From positions 1 through 59,627 of the forward strand of contig NZ_BBWQ01000017.1 in NCBI RefSeq assembly GCF_001463885.1: a stretch of 59,627 nucleotides of DNA, written 5' to 3'. This document shows, piece by piece, positions 40,930 to 45,561 of the stretch. Both the position numbers and the translations under genes were made by a program. The notes under the pieces were generated by a model that worked only from the letters and a program-made list of their open reading frames with translations, did no database searches and had not been told where the DNA came from. The stretch's first letter is position 1. Every line of letters begins with the position of its first letter. Origin of the DNA: Aureimonas altamirensis (GTDB lineage: Bacteria; Pseudomonadota; Alphaproteobacteria; Rhizobiales; Rhizobiaceae).

Positions 40930-42036
40930 ATGGCCCGTAGCATGACTGGACCGGCGTACATGGACGAATTGACCTCGACCACCCGAACATCGTCGATGCC
41001 CGCCGGGCATCCAAGGGTGCCGCCGGCGCGCGTCGGCATCCTGGTGGCCAATCTGGGGACGCCCGATGGCTACGACTACTGGTCCATGCGCCGCTATCTG
41101 AACGAGTTTCTGTCCGACAGGCGCGTGATCGACTACCCGCGCTGGAAATGGCAGCCGATCCTGCAGACGGTGATCCTGGCGAAGCGGCCGTTCAGTTCCG
41201 GCGCCAACTACAAGTCGATCTGGAACGAAAGCCTGAACGAAAGTCCGCTGCTGACCATCACGCGCCGGCAGACGGACAGACTGCGCGAGACGCTGGCCGC
41301 ACGATACGGCGATGCCGTGATCGTGGATTTCTGCATGCGTTACGGCAATCCGTCGGTGGAATCGGTGGTATCGCGGATGGTGGAAGAGGGGTGCACGCGC
41401 ATCCTCTATTTTCCGCTGTACCCGCAATATGCGGGCGCAACCGTCGCCACCGCCAACGACCAGTTCTTCCGCGCTCTGATGAAGCAGTTTCGGCAGCCGA
41501 CCGCACGGGTGGTCGACGCCTATTTCGAGCATCCGCTCTACGTCGAGGCGCTGGCGCAATCGGTCGAGCGCGCCTACGCGCAGGCGGATAGCCGGCCTGA
41601 AAAGCTCGTCGCTTCCTATCATGGAATGCCGAAGCGCTATCTGATGCAGGGCGACCCGTATCATTGCCAATGCCAGAAGACGACGCGGCTGCTGCGCGAA
41701 CGCCTGGGTTGGGCGGCCGACAGCATTGATACGACGTTCCAGTCGGTGTTCGGCCCGGAGGAATGGCTCAAGCCCTATACGGTCGAGCATGTGGCGGAAC
41801 TGGCCAAGCGGGGTATCCGCCATATCGCGGTGGCTTCGCCAGCCTTCAGCGCGGATTGCATCGAGACGCTGGAAGAGATCAACGGCGAAATCCGCGAAGC
41901 CTTCCTGCATGCCGGCGGAACGCAGTTCACCTACATTCCGTGCCTTAACGACGACGACGCCCATATCCGCGCCTTGTCGACGATCATCACGGAGAACCTG
42001 TCCGGATGGCTGGCACCCGCAGCGGAAGCTACCTGA
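40930..42036 (+). CDS. hemH: Ferrochelatase
   Basis: 368 residues; inserts Fe2+ into protoporphyrin IX, the last step of haem synthesis. GILVANLGTPDGYDYWSMRRYL at the N-terminus, ILYFPLYPQYAGATVATAND, SYHGMPKRYLMQGDPYHCQC (active-site His) and TTFQSVFGPEEWLKPYT (conserved Gln/Glu) are hallmark motifs. The ATG at 40930 has AAGG 5 nt upstream; later ATGs at 40942 and 40960 are possible. The N-terminal ~35 residues are not conserved. It lies between the autotransporter and tRNA-Cys. Confidence 0.96.
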   Translation: MARSMTGPAYMDELTSTTRTSSMPAGHPRVPPARVGILVANLGTPDGYDYWSMRRYLNEFLSDRRVIDYPRWKWQPILQTVILAKRPFSSGANYKSIWNESLNESPLLTITRRQTDRLRETLAARYGDAVIVDFCMRYGNPSVESVVSRMVEEGCTRILYFPLYPQYAGATVATANDQFFRALMKQFRQPTARVVDAYFEHPLYVEALAQSVERAYAQADSRPEKLVASYHGMPKRYLMQGDPYHCQCQKTTRLLRERLGWAADSIDTTFQSVFGPEEWLKPYTVEHVAELAKRGIRHIAVASPAFSADCIETLEEINGEIREAFLHAGGTQFTYIPCLNDDDAHIRALSTIITENLSGWLAPAAEAT

Positions 42037-42266: not shown

Positions 42267-42340
42267 TGGAGGCCTCGGCCGGAATCGAACCGGCGTGCAA
42301 GGATTTGCAGTCCTCTGCGTAACCACTCCGCCACGAGGCC
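42267..42340 (-). tRNA. tRNA-Cys (GCA), integration site
   Basis: 74 nt with an encoded CCA and discriminator U, as normal for tRNA-Cys. The acceptor GGCCTCG pairs with CGAGGCC; the anticodon segment CTGCAAA gives GCA; the T-arm is CGCCGGTTCGATTCCGGC. The 5' half and about 50 bp of upstream flank are repeated in degraded form at 45114-45199. Confidence 0.97.
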
Positions 42341-42394
42341 CCAACGGCGCTGTACCTACTGGCTCCCATGGGTTTGCGCAAGGGGGGCAAATCT

Positions 42395-42437
42395 CATTCT
42401 GAAAAGCCGTTCCTTGCGCCATTCTGAAAAGCCGTTC
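42395..42437 (+). repeat. Two 18-bp direct repeats near the left end of the element
   Basis: CATTCTGAAAAGCCGTTC occurs at 42395-42412 and 42420-42437 (period 25). Its first 13 bases recur inverted at 45071-45083 near the right end. They resemble arm-type recombinase or excisionase binding sites in layout; binding is not shown. Confidence 0.75.
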
Positions 42438-42541
42438 GGGCATTGTTTTGCGAGTGGTGGCCGCCGTGCCTATGGGGCGAATTAACTTTCCCCGTCGGAA
42501 GTAGGCGGTAAGCTGGGCCACTGCGGATCGGAGCCCGGTGC

Positions 42542-43207
42542 ATGTGCAATCTCTACTCGCTGACCAAAGGGCAATCGGCCATTGTCGGGCTTACGCGATC
42601 GCTGCACGACCGCACCGGTAACCTGCCTCCGATGCCTGGAATATTTCCGGACTATCCGGCGCCGGTCGTCCGCACCGGCGCTGACGGCGAGCGGGAGTTG
42701 ACGCTCATGCGCTGGGGCATGCCGTCGCCGCAGTTCGTCCTGAAGGGCCGTAAAGTGGATAGCGGCGTCACGAACATCAGGAACACAGCAAGCCCGCATT
42801 GGCGCCGGTGGCTTGGGCCCGCAAACCGCTGCCTGGTGCCGCTGACCAGCTTTTCCGAATACGACACGATCGACGGCAAAAAGGTGCCTGTGTGGTTCGC
42901 CTTGTCGGCAGATCGGCCGCTATGCGTCTTCGCCGGTATCTGGACGAACTGGACCAGCACGCGAAAGGTGAAAGAGGGCGAGGTAAATGCCGACCTCTAC
43001 GGCTTCCTCACATGCGAGCCGAACGCGGTCGTCGGGCCGATCCATCCAAAGGCGATGCCCGTCATACTGACGACTTTCGAGGAAATGGACGTGTGGATGC
43101 GTGCGCCTTGGGAGGAGGCGAAGGCGCTGCAGCGACCGTTGCCGGACGACGCGTTGATGATCGTCGCTCACGGCGACAGGGAGGATGGTCGTAGGGAAGA
43201 GGGCTAG
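42542..43207 (+). CDS. SRAP (HMCES/YedK) family protein
   Basis: 221 residues. The catalytic Cys2 (MCNLYSL) becomes N-terminal after Met removal and forms a thiazolidine link to abasic sites in single-stranded [28 protein letters not shown] (conserved Glu) and [12 protein letters not shown] (conserved His) are the other family residues. These enzymes protect ssDNA gaps from AP-site breakage; many sit beside mobile elements or SOS genes, as here. No SOS box is visible upstream. Confidence 0.92.
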
Positions 43208-43429
43208 GAATCTCGCCGCAGCATTCGCATGGCCGTTTCGATCCGTCGTTCGCTTCGCTCGCCCGTAACGATTCTCGGCTAGGCTAAGCATGGCCGCATC
43301 TACTGCATCCGGCGCCCAGCCGTTGGCATCGGCAAAATCCCCGACCTCGTTTAAGGCGAACTACACTGCCTCTTCGCATTCCAGCATATAGTTGGGGTGG
43401 CCGTGCTTGAAGCGGGTCGACCGGATCAT
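43204..43429 (-). pseudogene. Broken small gene: in-frame TAG plus frameshift
   Basis: AAGGAG lies 8 nt before an ATG at 43429. The frame reads MIRSTRFKHGHPNYMLECEE then AV and stops at TAG (43363-43361). The same frame continues as protein-like sequence FALNEVGDFADANGWAPDAV and MLSLAENRYG. A +1 shift at a GGG run then gives [18 protein letters not shown] and a stop at 43206-43204, abutting the convergent SRAP stop. Two lesions in one short gene indicate a pseudogene. Product unknown; about 75 residues when intact. Confidence 0.6.
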
Positions 43430-43763
43430 TGGCAGGCTCCTTGTGGATGACCTGCCAACAACATTGACGTGCGGGTGTTCCGATAAGGGACGAGGTCTCG
43501 CGGCACTTATCAGATGCGTTGGCCGCAGGGTGCGCGGTTTGCTGGGGGCGGCAACCGCTACAACGACTAAGTCCCGGTAAAATATGGTCGGGCGCTCAGG
43601 ATCTAACGGTGGACCCTTCGGTGTGAACGATGCCAATTCAGTGAAAATTGTTCCGGATCAGATCAGCTATGGGGTGGAATACGGACTGGTGGCTTTCGTC
43701 TAGTGACCCACAAATGCCGACATCGAAACCGCAGGCCGTATGGCCTGCGGCAGAGCGAGCGGA
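43430..43763. other. Gap without a confident gene; hairpin at 43729-43750
   Basis: Frames here are short and not protein-like. CCGCAGGCC (43729-43737) and GGCCTGCGG (43742-43750) form a perfect 9-bp stem with a 4-nt loop, 14 bp after the stop of the leftward ATPase gene and followed on that strand by TTT: a probable terminator for that gene. Confidence 0.6.
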
Positions 43764-44477
43764 CTAATGAGCCCCTTCGGATGCCGATGGATGATCGCCA
43801 ATGAAGTGCGTCTTGGTGAACACAGCCATGTCGACAGGATTGGGCAATCTGACGTCCGTTAAATCAGGAACGCGCTTCGCGACAGGATCATATGTGCGGG
43901 CAATCTGAGAGATCATGAGAAACACCAATTCTCGGTCATCCGCAAAGGTCCTCAGAGCTACCATCTGTTCGGACAGTTGTGGGTGTGTTCGTTTCTGATC
44001 CATCAATTGCAAATAGTCGACTGCGATCACCGTTCCAGGCCGAGCTGACTCCGCCTTGGCAATGATGTAGTCCGCACAAATATAGTCTGAACAGTCGAGT
44101 CTGAAAGCGTCTCCATACTGTCTGGCATCAAAGCCTATTAATGCGAAACGCGCATAAACTTCCGCTTCGGTATACTCGAGTGTAAAGAACATGCCCTGTT
44201 TGCCGTCCTTCAGGGCCTCAGCCACGATTTCCAAGGCAAGCAGAGTCTTTCCTTGTCCCGGACGTGCTCCAATAAGCATCACTTCGCCATGTTTCAGGCC
44301 TGCATACAGCTTGGCCGCAGACGAACTTGACGTATGCTTAGCTGCAAGCAGGCTCCAACTACTGAAACCTTCTGCCGCAGCAACTCGGTCAAGGGCGACA
44401 TTGAGATCAACTCCCTGGCTACGGGCGAGCTGTTTTGCCGTGCGCTTGAGATGATAGATTGGTGCTGAGAGCTTCAT
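43764..44477 (-). CDS. DnaB-like (SF4) RecA-fold ATPase
   Basis: 237 residues. A helical N-terminal segment (KRTAKQLARSQGVDLNVALD to GFSSWSLLAA) precedes a RecA core: Walker A GARPGQGKT (70-78), FFTLEYTEAEVYARF in the DnaB H1a position (SLE-like), Walker B VIAVDYLQLMD (Asp154), and SQIAR in the H4 position. DYLQLM and this order are those of the replicative helicase C-terminal domain, but the DnaB N-terminal primase-interaction domain is missing and the protein is half length. GGAAGG lies before the ATG. Likely accessory replication or toxin/defence-type ATPase; function unknown. Confidence 0.85.
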   Translation of the reverse strand: MKLSAPIYHLKRTAKQLARSQGVDLNVALDRVAAAEGFSSWSLLAAKHTSSSSAAKLYAGLKHGEVMLIGARPGQGKTLLALEIVAEALKDGKQGMFFTLEYTEAEVYARFALIGFDARQYGDAFRLDCSDYICADYIIAKAESARPGTVIAVDYLQLMDQKRTHPQLSEQMVALRTFADDRELVFLMISQIARTYDPVAKRVPDLTDVRLPNPVDMAVFTKTHFIGDHPSASEGAH

Positions 44478-44713
44478 AATACCCTTCCAGTGCGAGCCTT
44501 GTCAGCAATCCCTCCTTTTGCTTTCGGCCGGAACTTGGCTGGGTTTATTACTCGCCCTGCATGATATTTACTTTCCCAGCGGAGGGGGGCGGCGTGGGCA
44601 ACACCAGAATCAAACAATAGCACCATGTCGGCTTTTGGGGAAGAATTCCAAGCGCTGGGATGTCTCACATGGGGTCGAAAGCAGACATTGTAGAACTGTC
44701 TGATCCTAGACAC
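44474..44713 (-). CDS. Small hypothetical protein coupled to the DnaB-like ATPase
   Basis: 79 residues, MSRIRQFYNVCFRPHVRHPS, basic, no recognised domain. Its TGA overlaps the ATPase ATG (ATGA), the main reason to list it. No strong SD is seen at its own start, and the composition is only moderately protein-like. Confidence 0.35.
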   Translation of the reverse strand: MSRIRQFYNVCFRPHVRHPSAWNSSPKADMVLLFDSGVAHAAPLRWESKYHAGRVINPAKFRPKAKGGIADKARTGRVL

Positions 44714-45113
44714 TACCCGCTACATGACACAGGGACGGATCACGAACTCCGCTGGATCACCGGTGCGTCTGTTGTGCTCGCGCAAACTAGGCCAGGCAGT
44801 AACTCTTTTCATAGCTACCGGATGAATGCTCCGATCCCGCCGCCTAGCGCACTGTTGTCGGCCGGGTAATGGCGCCAGTAAAACTGGGACATTAAATGGT
44901 CTATCGGGCGGAGCGGGGCCCCTGAATCGGCAGTTGCCTATCGCAAACCTGTCAAGCAAAGGATGCGTGCGCGTCCTCGCCGAGTCCATCCGAAATTTCA
45001 TTCTGGAAATGCCTGAAAACCCCGGATACTCAACGGCCGAAAAATGCCTGTTCCGGACGATTTCTGGCGTGCTTTTCAGAATGCCGATTGCTTTGATTAG
45101 GGTGTTAGAGGCG
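44714..45113. other. Non-coding interior of the element's right end
   Basis: No convincing gene on either strand. The stretch 44994-45083 contains several variants of the CATTCTGAAAAGC motif: CATTCTGGAAATGCC near 44999, CTGAAAACCCC just after, and the inverted GCTTTTCAGAATG at 45071-45083. It mirrors the left-end repeats. Confidence 0.5.
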
Positions 45114-45199
45114 TTGCAGTCCTTTGCGTAACCACTCCGCCCCGAGGCCCCAACGGCGCTGTACCGACTGGCACGAGGGGGGATGCGCAAGGGGCTTTC
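45114..45199 (-). pseudogene. tRNA-Cys 5'-half remnant (right boundary of the element)
   Basis: Matches the functional tRNA-Cys from the anticodon loop to its 5' end and on into upstream DNA. Substitutions hit functional positions: conserved U8 reads G, and an anticodon-stem base is changed (C to T on the plus strand). The 3' half is absent. It is therefore the displaced copy. Confidence 0.85.
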
Positions 45200-45228: not shown

Positions 45229-45561
45229 CTAATGTCCGCGTCCCTTGCCCGTCGGTTCGATATGCGGAAGCCGACCGATGATTCGCTGCGGGCGACCCTT
45301 GCGCCGTCCCCAGCGCACCGTCGTGCGGCGTCGCCAGCGGCGTACCGAAGCGAAATCGACCGAAAGGATCAGCAAGCCAACAGGCAGCATCCAGATGCCG
45401 AGGACAGGCAGGAAGCTGAAGATGCCCCCCGTCACGAAAGCCGCGCCCGTGGCGACGCGCGCGGGACGTGAAGCGGGCAGGCGTACGCTGCGACCGAAAA
45501 CTTCGATCGCATTGCCGCGCAGCCTGACATAGCTGCCGCCTTTTCGCTTTTCCGTGTCCAT
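45229..45561 (-). CDS. PGPGW-type small transmembrane protein
   Basis: 110 residues with two close hydrophobic helices (TGAAFVTGGIFSFLPVLGIW then MLPVGLLILSVDF) and basic flanks. The hinge FLPVLGIWMLPVGLLILS resembles the PGPGW transmembrane family found in Hyphomicrobiales. Function unknown. First intact gene beyond the element. Confidence 0.7.
   Translation of the reverse strand: MDTEKRKGGSYVRLRGNAIEVFGRSVRLPASRPARVATGAAFVTGGIFSFLPVLGIWMLPVGLLILSVDFASVRRWRRRTTVRWGRRKGRPQRIIGRLPHIEPTGKGRGH

Follow-up and report, generated by a model that had tools for sequence, protein, structure and literature searches.

In the accessible part of the Islander description (PMC4383910), 159 of the 3919 mapped islands have a 5' fragment of the tRNA gene, and sites centred on the anticodon form one subsite. 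The available text of a review (PMC8371274, citing Williams 2002) states that recombined bacterial tRNA genes keep their original promoter with very few exceptions, and it also describes pTN3-like archaeal integrases, which leave a rebuilt tRNA expressed from a promoter supplied by the element. As far as these sources were accessible, the principle is already known, in that 5'-fragment islands have been described and element-supplied tRNA promoters are rare in bacteria. Here we describe an insert of 2.8 kb in the tRNA-Cys gene of Aureimonas altamirensis, located in a stretch of 59,627 nucleotides (contig NZ_BBWQ01000017.1, positions 1 to 59,627; hereafter the window) and encoding two genes, for a SRAP-domain protein and a DnaB_C/PRK05973-like ATPase. 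Put plainly, the insert, probably a short phage leftover, gives tRNA-Cys a new front half, and probably also a new promoter, the reverse of what insertions into tRNA genes ordinarily do.

The locus has the layout of the Islander 5'-fragment class, with an intact tRNA gene and a displaced 5'-only fragment upstream in the same orientation. However, Islander rejects candidates without an integrase frame, according to the part of its description at hand, and the window insert has none; moreover, the phage family related to the insert scores under the Pfam Phage_integrase cut-off in the members tested. The pTN3-like elements share with our locus the rebuilt tRNA under an element-supplied promoter, but in the available account (PMC8371274) their suicidal integrases split their own gene and expression comes from the integrase promoter, whereas here a copy of the tRNA promoter lies in the phage attachment site (attP), outside the integrase gene. 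The tRNA-dependent lysogeny of mycobacteriophages, as set out in the accessible part of PMC10865867, is similar in that the phage comes to provide an essential tRNA whose gene was struck by its integration; there, however, the tRNA is not rebuilt and a whole separate phage tRNA gene is used, whereas here tRNA-Cys itself is rebuilt. In the literature searched, which mostly excluded subscription journals, we met no bacterial promoter-bearing 5'-half attP beyond the remarks in PMC8371274 and PMC4383910, and likewise no account of the phage family, of the polarity switch or of an integrase-less remnant with a decayed host promoter.

Junctions of the insert and empty sites in relatives

The first-pass annotation of this DNA had placed a tRNA-Cys gene at 42267-42340 and a partial copy of it at 45114-45199. 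ARAGORN called a single tRNA-Cys, on the minus strand and at the same position as the annotated gene, and a search within the window aligned the second copy over 81 bases at 45114-45194 (10 mismatches, 0 gaps, E 2e-24); the start of the copy thus stood, while its end had been set about 5 bases too far. The shared block runs from TTGCAG of the anticodon loop (42305 = 45114) through the tRNA 5' end (42340 = 45149) to just beyond the -35 box, in line with the earlier description of a duplicate that begins in the anticodon loop and continues through the 5' end into the upstream flank, and the 3 mismatches counted in its first 59 bases match the 3 previously given for the first ~60 bp. One of the substitutions in the orphaned half sits at the foot of the anticodon stem. 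When the 4.19-Mb genome was searched with tRNA-Cys and its flank, two matches came back, the gene and the fragment.

Single tRNA-Cys matches were found in all 20 other genomes of the genus examined, and the duplicate is thereby present in 1 of 21 when the window's own genome (G000) is included. As a check, the first-pass annotation had proposed looking in relatives for an empty site, with tRNA-Cys followed directly by the gene of a PGPGW-domain protein, and for larger versions of the insert with an integrase. Both were found. In the nearest relatives, G005 and G012, a whole tRNA-Cys runs straight through its upstream flank into the PGPGW gene, and this flank fits the right copy of the window (ATGCGCAAGGGGC...) and not the left one. 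We therefore assign the right copy to the old host 5' half and promoter, and the left copy to the insert. The gene order PGPGW, tRNA-Asn, PCMT, tolC, valS is common to the window, G005 and G012, at 89-91% identity.

On the other side of the tRNA the distance from hemH to tRNA-Cys is 230 bp in the window, 20 kb in G005 and ~7 kb in G012, always on the same side; the idea that hemH was missing in these relatives, and the left flank hence not comparable, was thus rejected. The extra material of G005 and G012 lies on the 3' side of tRNA-Cys, that of the window on the 5' side. By eye, stretches in the gaps between hemH and tRNA-Cys (L034 and L035; G005 C1:2070061-2090212, G012 C34:89280-96183) resemble transporter and LysR-type genes, and from these gaps the 3' side of tRNA-Cys seems to be an insertion site as well. 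In other families of the order, second copies of tRNA-Cys that comprise the 3' part only occur in G044 (L039/L040) and G037 (L041), 39 kb and 16 kb off, as in ordinary tRNA islands.

Related prophages and their attachment sites

Among 61 related genomes searched with tRNA-Cys and its flank, 59 matched, and a second 5'-only copy was listed for G000 and for Amorphus coralli (G053); G050 has a lone 5' half at a contig end. The Amorphus element measures 41.5 kb and its tyrosine recombinase match ends 78 bp before the tRNA, and an element of 61 kb in Aurantimonas sp. CSK15Z-1, with the integrase directly upstream of tRNA-Cys, shares both ends with the window insert. Since nine of nine chosen large frames of the Aurantimonas element matched named phage families (primase, two methyltransferases, terminase, portal, head, tape measure and two tail proteins), we regard it as a tailed prophage. 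Compared with this prophage, the left end of the window insert matches at 83% over 174 bp and the right end at 75% over 177 bp; trimming off the tRNA part leaves matches in corresponding places, of 72% over 89 bp for the right end (E 2e-4) and, more weakly, of 77% over 44 bp for the left (E 1e-3).

Eight genomes were searched with tRNA-Cys, and seven of them contain a second, 5'-only copy. In three it shares contig and strand with the gene, at a distance of 61 kb (Aurantimonas), 41.5 kb (Amorphus) and 3.3 kb (Rhizobium mongolense); in the remaining four it lies on another contig. The 3.3-kb insert at tRNA-Cys of Rhizobium mongolense (L149:7465-10824) has an N-terminally truncated integrase beside the orphan half.

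Sites resembling attP, composed of the tRNA-Cys promoter region and the 5' half and ending in the anticodon loop, were found in two phage records (L262, Yong-M2-251, circular; L263, Ssp-JY39, of which the same stretch was read) and in three viral contigs (L204, L205 and L206). No tRNA-Cys 3' half occurs in the sequence read at these five sites; in the integrated loci L103, L101 and L122 it is present in the sequence read. TTCAGAA repeats stand beyond the promoter at the attP-like sites. An inverted repeat follows the core at a distance of 31 bp in L204, L205, L262 and L263, and in L206 the distance to a repeat is 84 bp. The integrase gene lies beside the doubled repeats in L206, L103 and L122, and on the opposite side in L204, L205, L262, L111 and L149. 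The records L262 and L263 (OM868082 and PP438429) are labelled as Synechococcus phages, a host label that is doubtful; they carry a window-like tRNA-Cys 5' half and an integrase met almost only in alphaproteobacterial records.

The junctions, the empty sites, the shared ends, the attP content of related phages and the divergence of the orphan are thus demonstrated, at the level of sequence. The empty sites, shared ends and attP content agree with what the first-pass annotation had claimed, namely that the host 3' half is kept, that the insert brings the 5' half and promoter, and that the old host 5' half was displaced to the right. We consider it highly probable that site-specific integration into tRNA-Cys took place and that the insert supplied the 5' half and promoter, event and polarity taken jointly. 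A local segmental duplication or gene conversion of the tRNA 5' half and promoter, without site-specific integration, could in principle also leave an 81-bp duplicate with unrelated genes in between. However, the edge of the duplicate falls in the anticodon loop and the same edge is found beside an integrase in relatives, the further flank of the left copy fits phage ends while that of the right copy fits the host, and phages hold sites with the same half, which together render this explanation extremely improbable. A plain duplication was rejected on the phage-like left flank and the family of equal junctions; it would also require the arm repeats and the homology of the ends to have arisen by chance, which the counts of the repeat contradict.

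Integrase family and polarity of integration

For the Amorphus recombinase, searches of Pfam, NCBIfam and PHROGs yielded nothing at the thresholds applied, and 6 of 25 homologs touched Pfam Phage_integrase at E <= 1, the best at 0.0021. Homologs at E <= 0.001 numbered 1272 among 7996 candidates scored. In an alignment of the 25 homologs the residues R, K, R-H, H and Y, which we take to be the catalytic ones, were invariant. Because the family profile gave no useful match among PDB sequences (best E 0.34, none a recombinase), folds were compared instead. The AlphaFold2 model of the Amorphus member (mean predicted local distance difference test score 84.8, predicted template modelling score 0.64) had its best PDB match in lambda Int (1z1g/1z1b, 383-397 columns; E 6e-10 for 1z1g). 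Judged by this modelled fold and the invariant residues, the family integrase is a divergent lambda-Int-type tyrosine recombinase. In L101, L103, L122, L125 and L130 a gap of 78-182 bp separates the end of the integrase match from the tRNA, and the attachment site thus does not fall inside the integrase gene as it does in pTN3-like elements.

Scanning the genome contigs yielded 74 integrase loci, in which polarity was scored within 500 bp after the integrase match. The tRNA reads away from the integrase, with its 5' end towards it, in 6 of the 74 (5 Cys, 1 Val), faces the integrase in 47 (Gln, Arg, Glu, Thr, His) and is missing in 21. At 35 viral loci, a full tRNA reading away was found in five (4 Cys, 1 Tyr) and a facing one in five; seven more had a match to the tRNA-Cys 5' half and no full tRNA call (L210 being cut by the contig end), and 18 had none of these, although two of the latter, L223 and L235, showed a tRNA-Gln 3' half when their sequence was read. 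A tree was built of 53 integrases, 39 of which had a polarity label, and two changes of polarity were needed on it; for this tree 60 of 109 loci were picked by hand by length, three were dropped for internal stops (L162, L166 and L205), four were merged at 97%, and the 14 integrases without a polarity label did not enter the count of changes.

Elements had been said in the first-pass annotation to restore usually the 3' half. Most family members are indeed so oriented, but the claim is to be refined, as the 5'-displacing type is a documented minority in the accessible part of PMC4383910. The tRNA-Gln and tRNA-Arg members, which represent ordinary anticodon-loop phages, have the same integrase family, a tRNA beside the integrase and, in the two that were read, similar repeats. 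They differ in that their orientation places them 3' of the tRNA gene, which stays under the host promoter; the viral 3' half itself was read in L223 and L235 only.

Promoters and arm-like repeats

The motif TTGNNN followed after 16 to 18 bp by TA was present in 16 of 17 tRNA upstream regions, where 0.8 would be expected after shuffling. These regions comprised 2 native tRNA-Cys genes, the element-borne copies, the orphans, one Val and one Tyr; the motif was picked after the sequences had been viewed, and it stands 11 to 31 bases from the tRNA. The sole failure is the window orphan, which lost the A of its -10 box, and the orphans of Aurantimonas and Amorphus (L183 and L187) retain the motif. 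The insert-supplied promoter would be the active one in the window. The orphaned promoter aims at the ATPase gene ~640 bp off (45114-44477, minus strand), and the loss of its -10 base may keep transcription from running on into the insert.

Beyond the insert-supplied promoter stand two direct repeats, with an inverted copy ~30 bp inside the core at the far end, in both the window and the Aurantimonas prophage; they probably serve as arm-type sites of the integrase. The repeat TTTTCAGAATG has four copies in G000 (42395, 42420, 45073 and 29504, the last near the start of an open frame) and three in the CSK15Z-1 genome, all at the ends of its element, with a reversed-pattern control of 0, and it was therefore rejected as a common genomic motif. 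It occurs twice each in the genomes G005, G012 and G003, one of the G003 copies being upstream of tRNA-Cys. At <=2 mismatches, arm-like repeats were found at 4 of 30 loci (the window, G003, G006 and G008; 0.004 expected per locus), and the exact double pattern was found in 4 of 397 genomes (G284, G195, G000 and G053; control 0).

Several findings have to be weighed against the integration of a phage of this family. Once the tRNA part is removed, the end matches are short and weak. The fold match holds by domains, with TM-scores of 0.48/0.59 and a root-mean-square deviation of 14.7 over the full length. No integrase of this family was found in G000. Four stretches covering the Aurantimonas prophage contained no homologs of the SRAP protein and the ATPase, which leaves descent by simple deletion a conjecture. 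Finally, tRNA-Cys is preceded by arm-like repeats in five genomes that show no element there, G003, G006, G008, G284 and G195, and part of the left-end similarity of the window could be an old host feature.

In these five genomes (L005, L010, L014, L247 and L248) the repeats stand roughly 55-110 bp upstream of tRNA-Cys, for which there is one match apiece. On the 5' side, ~19 to 27 kb of G003, G284 and G195 contained no orphan by a looser pattern and no integrase by tblastn, and genome-wide no family integrase was found in G003, G006 and G008 at E 1e-8. Such repeats may be relics of elements since lost, or a host motif of older date. If they were a long-standing regulatory signal of tRNA-Cys in these bacteria, the phages would have acquired them together with the promoter, as their occurrence in genomes without a visible element would allow. 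However, the repeats are absent from the nearest empty sites in G005 and G012, the inverted copy at the far end has the same place in window and prophage, and the viral loci L223 and L235 (L235 with a variant motif) have doubled repeats beside a tRNA-Gln 3' half. We therefore regard a host origin of the repeats as improbable.

Content and state of the insert

The coordinates of the locus are collected in Table 1. Both genes of the insert have open frames, and its GC content is 56.5%, compared with 64.1 +/- 2.2% for equal-sized stretches elsewhere in the window. Neither the open frames of the insert nor protein-family searches with its genes revealed an integrase, which bears out the earlier statement that the 2.8 kb lack one, and no tRNA was called inside. 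As neither a lambda-Int-type integrase of the family nor phage structural genes are aboard, we file the insert as a remnant or derivative and not as a complete member of the family. The SRAP protein shows 71% to plasmid proteins of Aureimonas sp. AU20. Relatives of the ATPase occur in 78 phage records, all at <60% identity and the ten listed at 27-28%; neither protein matched a defence system. In G016, too, tRNA-Cys has a SRAP gene as its neighbour (L030:720-1364), 71% identical to that of the window; there it occupies the 3' side, flanked by PCMT and the tRNA.

Table 1. Positions of features at the tRNA-Cys locus of the window.
Feature	Position	Strand	Remarks
hemH (ferrochelatase)	40930..42036	+	left flank; side shared with G005 and G012
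hybrid tRNA-Cys(GCA)	42267..42340	-	3' half 42267-42304 from host; 5' half 42305-42340 insert-supplied
TTGCAG (plus strand) of anticodon loop	42305..42310	-	start of shared block; putative crossover, left junction
insert-supplied promoter (predicted)	42353..42381	-	-35 TTGCGC 42376-42381, 17-bp spacer, -10 TAGGTA 42353-42358
two direct copies of TTTTCAGAATG	42395-42405, 42420-42430	-	putative integrase arm-type sites; counterparts in Aurantimonas prophage
SRAP (SOS response-associated peptidase) protein, 221 aa	42542..43207	+	Pfam PF02586, E 7e-24
DnaB_C-like ATPase, PRK05973 'DNA helicase' family, 237 aa	43764..44477	-	325 bits, cut-off 156
right inner end	44998..45113	+	homologous to right end of Aurantimonas 61-kb prophage
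degenerate CATTCTGGAAA	44999-45009		in right inner end
inverted TTTTCAGAATG	45073-45083		in right inner end
orphaned old host 5' half of tRNA-Cys	45114..45149	-	2 substitutions in tRNA part
orphaned old promoter	45162..45190	-	-35 TTGCGC retained; -10 TAGGTA changed to TCGGTA
PGPGW-domain gene	45229..45561	-	right flank; adjoins tRNA-Cys in empty sites; Pfam 21.1, cut-off 23.3

Within the integration reading, we lean, with limited confidence, towards a dead remnant. The main rival is a living, non-autonomous mini-island with phage-type ends, which a related phage would mobilise in trans through its integrase and which carries SRAP and ATPase as cargo. Core and arms are kept at both ends, both genes are open, the cargo is unlike that of the prophage sharing the ends, and the short insert of Rhizobium mongolense with its truncated integrase provides another case of this size. 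Against mobility, the duplicate is confined to the one genome of the genus and has no further copy there, the orphan attachment half is mutated, including the base at the foot of the anticodon stem, and G000 holds no integrase of this family that could mobilise it. On balance, a living mini-island appears rather unlikely.

Proposed history and implications

In the history that we propose for the dead remnant, the ancestor would have been a temperate tailed phage with a lambda-Int-like integrase, of which the 2.8-kb segment is the remainder. Its attP would have consisted of the tRNA-Cys promoter and the 5' half up to the anticodon-loop core, with two direct arm repeats on the far side of the promoter and, ~30 bp beyond the core, a third in inverted orientation. 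The integrase would bind the arm repeats and the anticodon stem, and strand exchange would take place in the anticodon loop of the host tRNA-Cys, presumably with cleavage in the shared TTGCAG. Because attP holds the 5' half and the promoter, tRNA-Cys would be rebuilt from the phage promoter and 5' half and the host 3' half, and the host promoter and 5' half would be displaced to the far end. This displaced host front, now useless, would have lost its -10 A, and the insert would have lost its integrase and structural genes, most likely by internal deletion.

More tentatively, we suggest that a clade of these integrases reversed its polarity at the symmetric anticodon loop, and that an attP with promoter and 5' half put the host tRNA-Cys under a phage promoter. 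The displaced host promoter would then decay, making the swap permanent even without the phage body, as in the window and perhaps in G003, G006, G008, G284 and G195. At the end of this course would stand the window insert, a domesticated phage promoter for an essential tRNA; we consider this a possibility that is more likely to fail than to hold.

The family offers comparable exceptions to the rule that recombined bacterial tRNA genes keep their promoter, and through them one can trace polarity, the capture of promoters and their decay; how an integrase changes sides at a symmetric tRNA site also becomes open to test. The family further suggests that island finders which require a recognised integrase miss such remnants, and perhaps the phages too.

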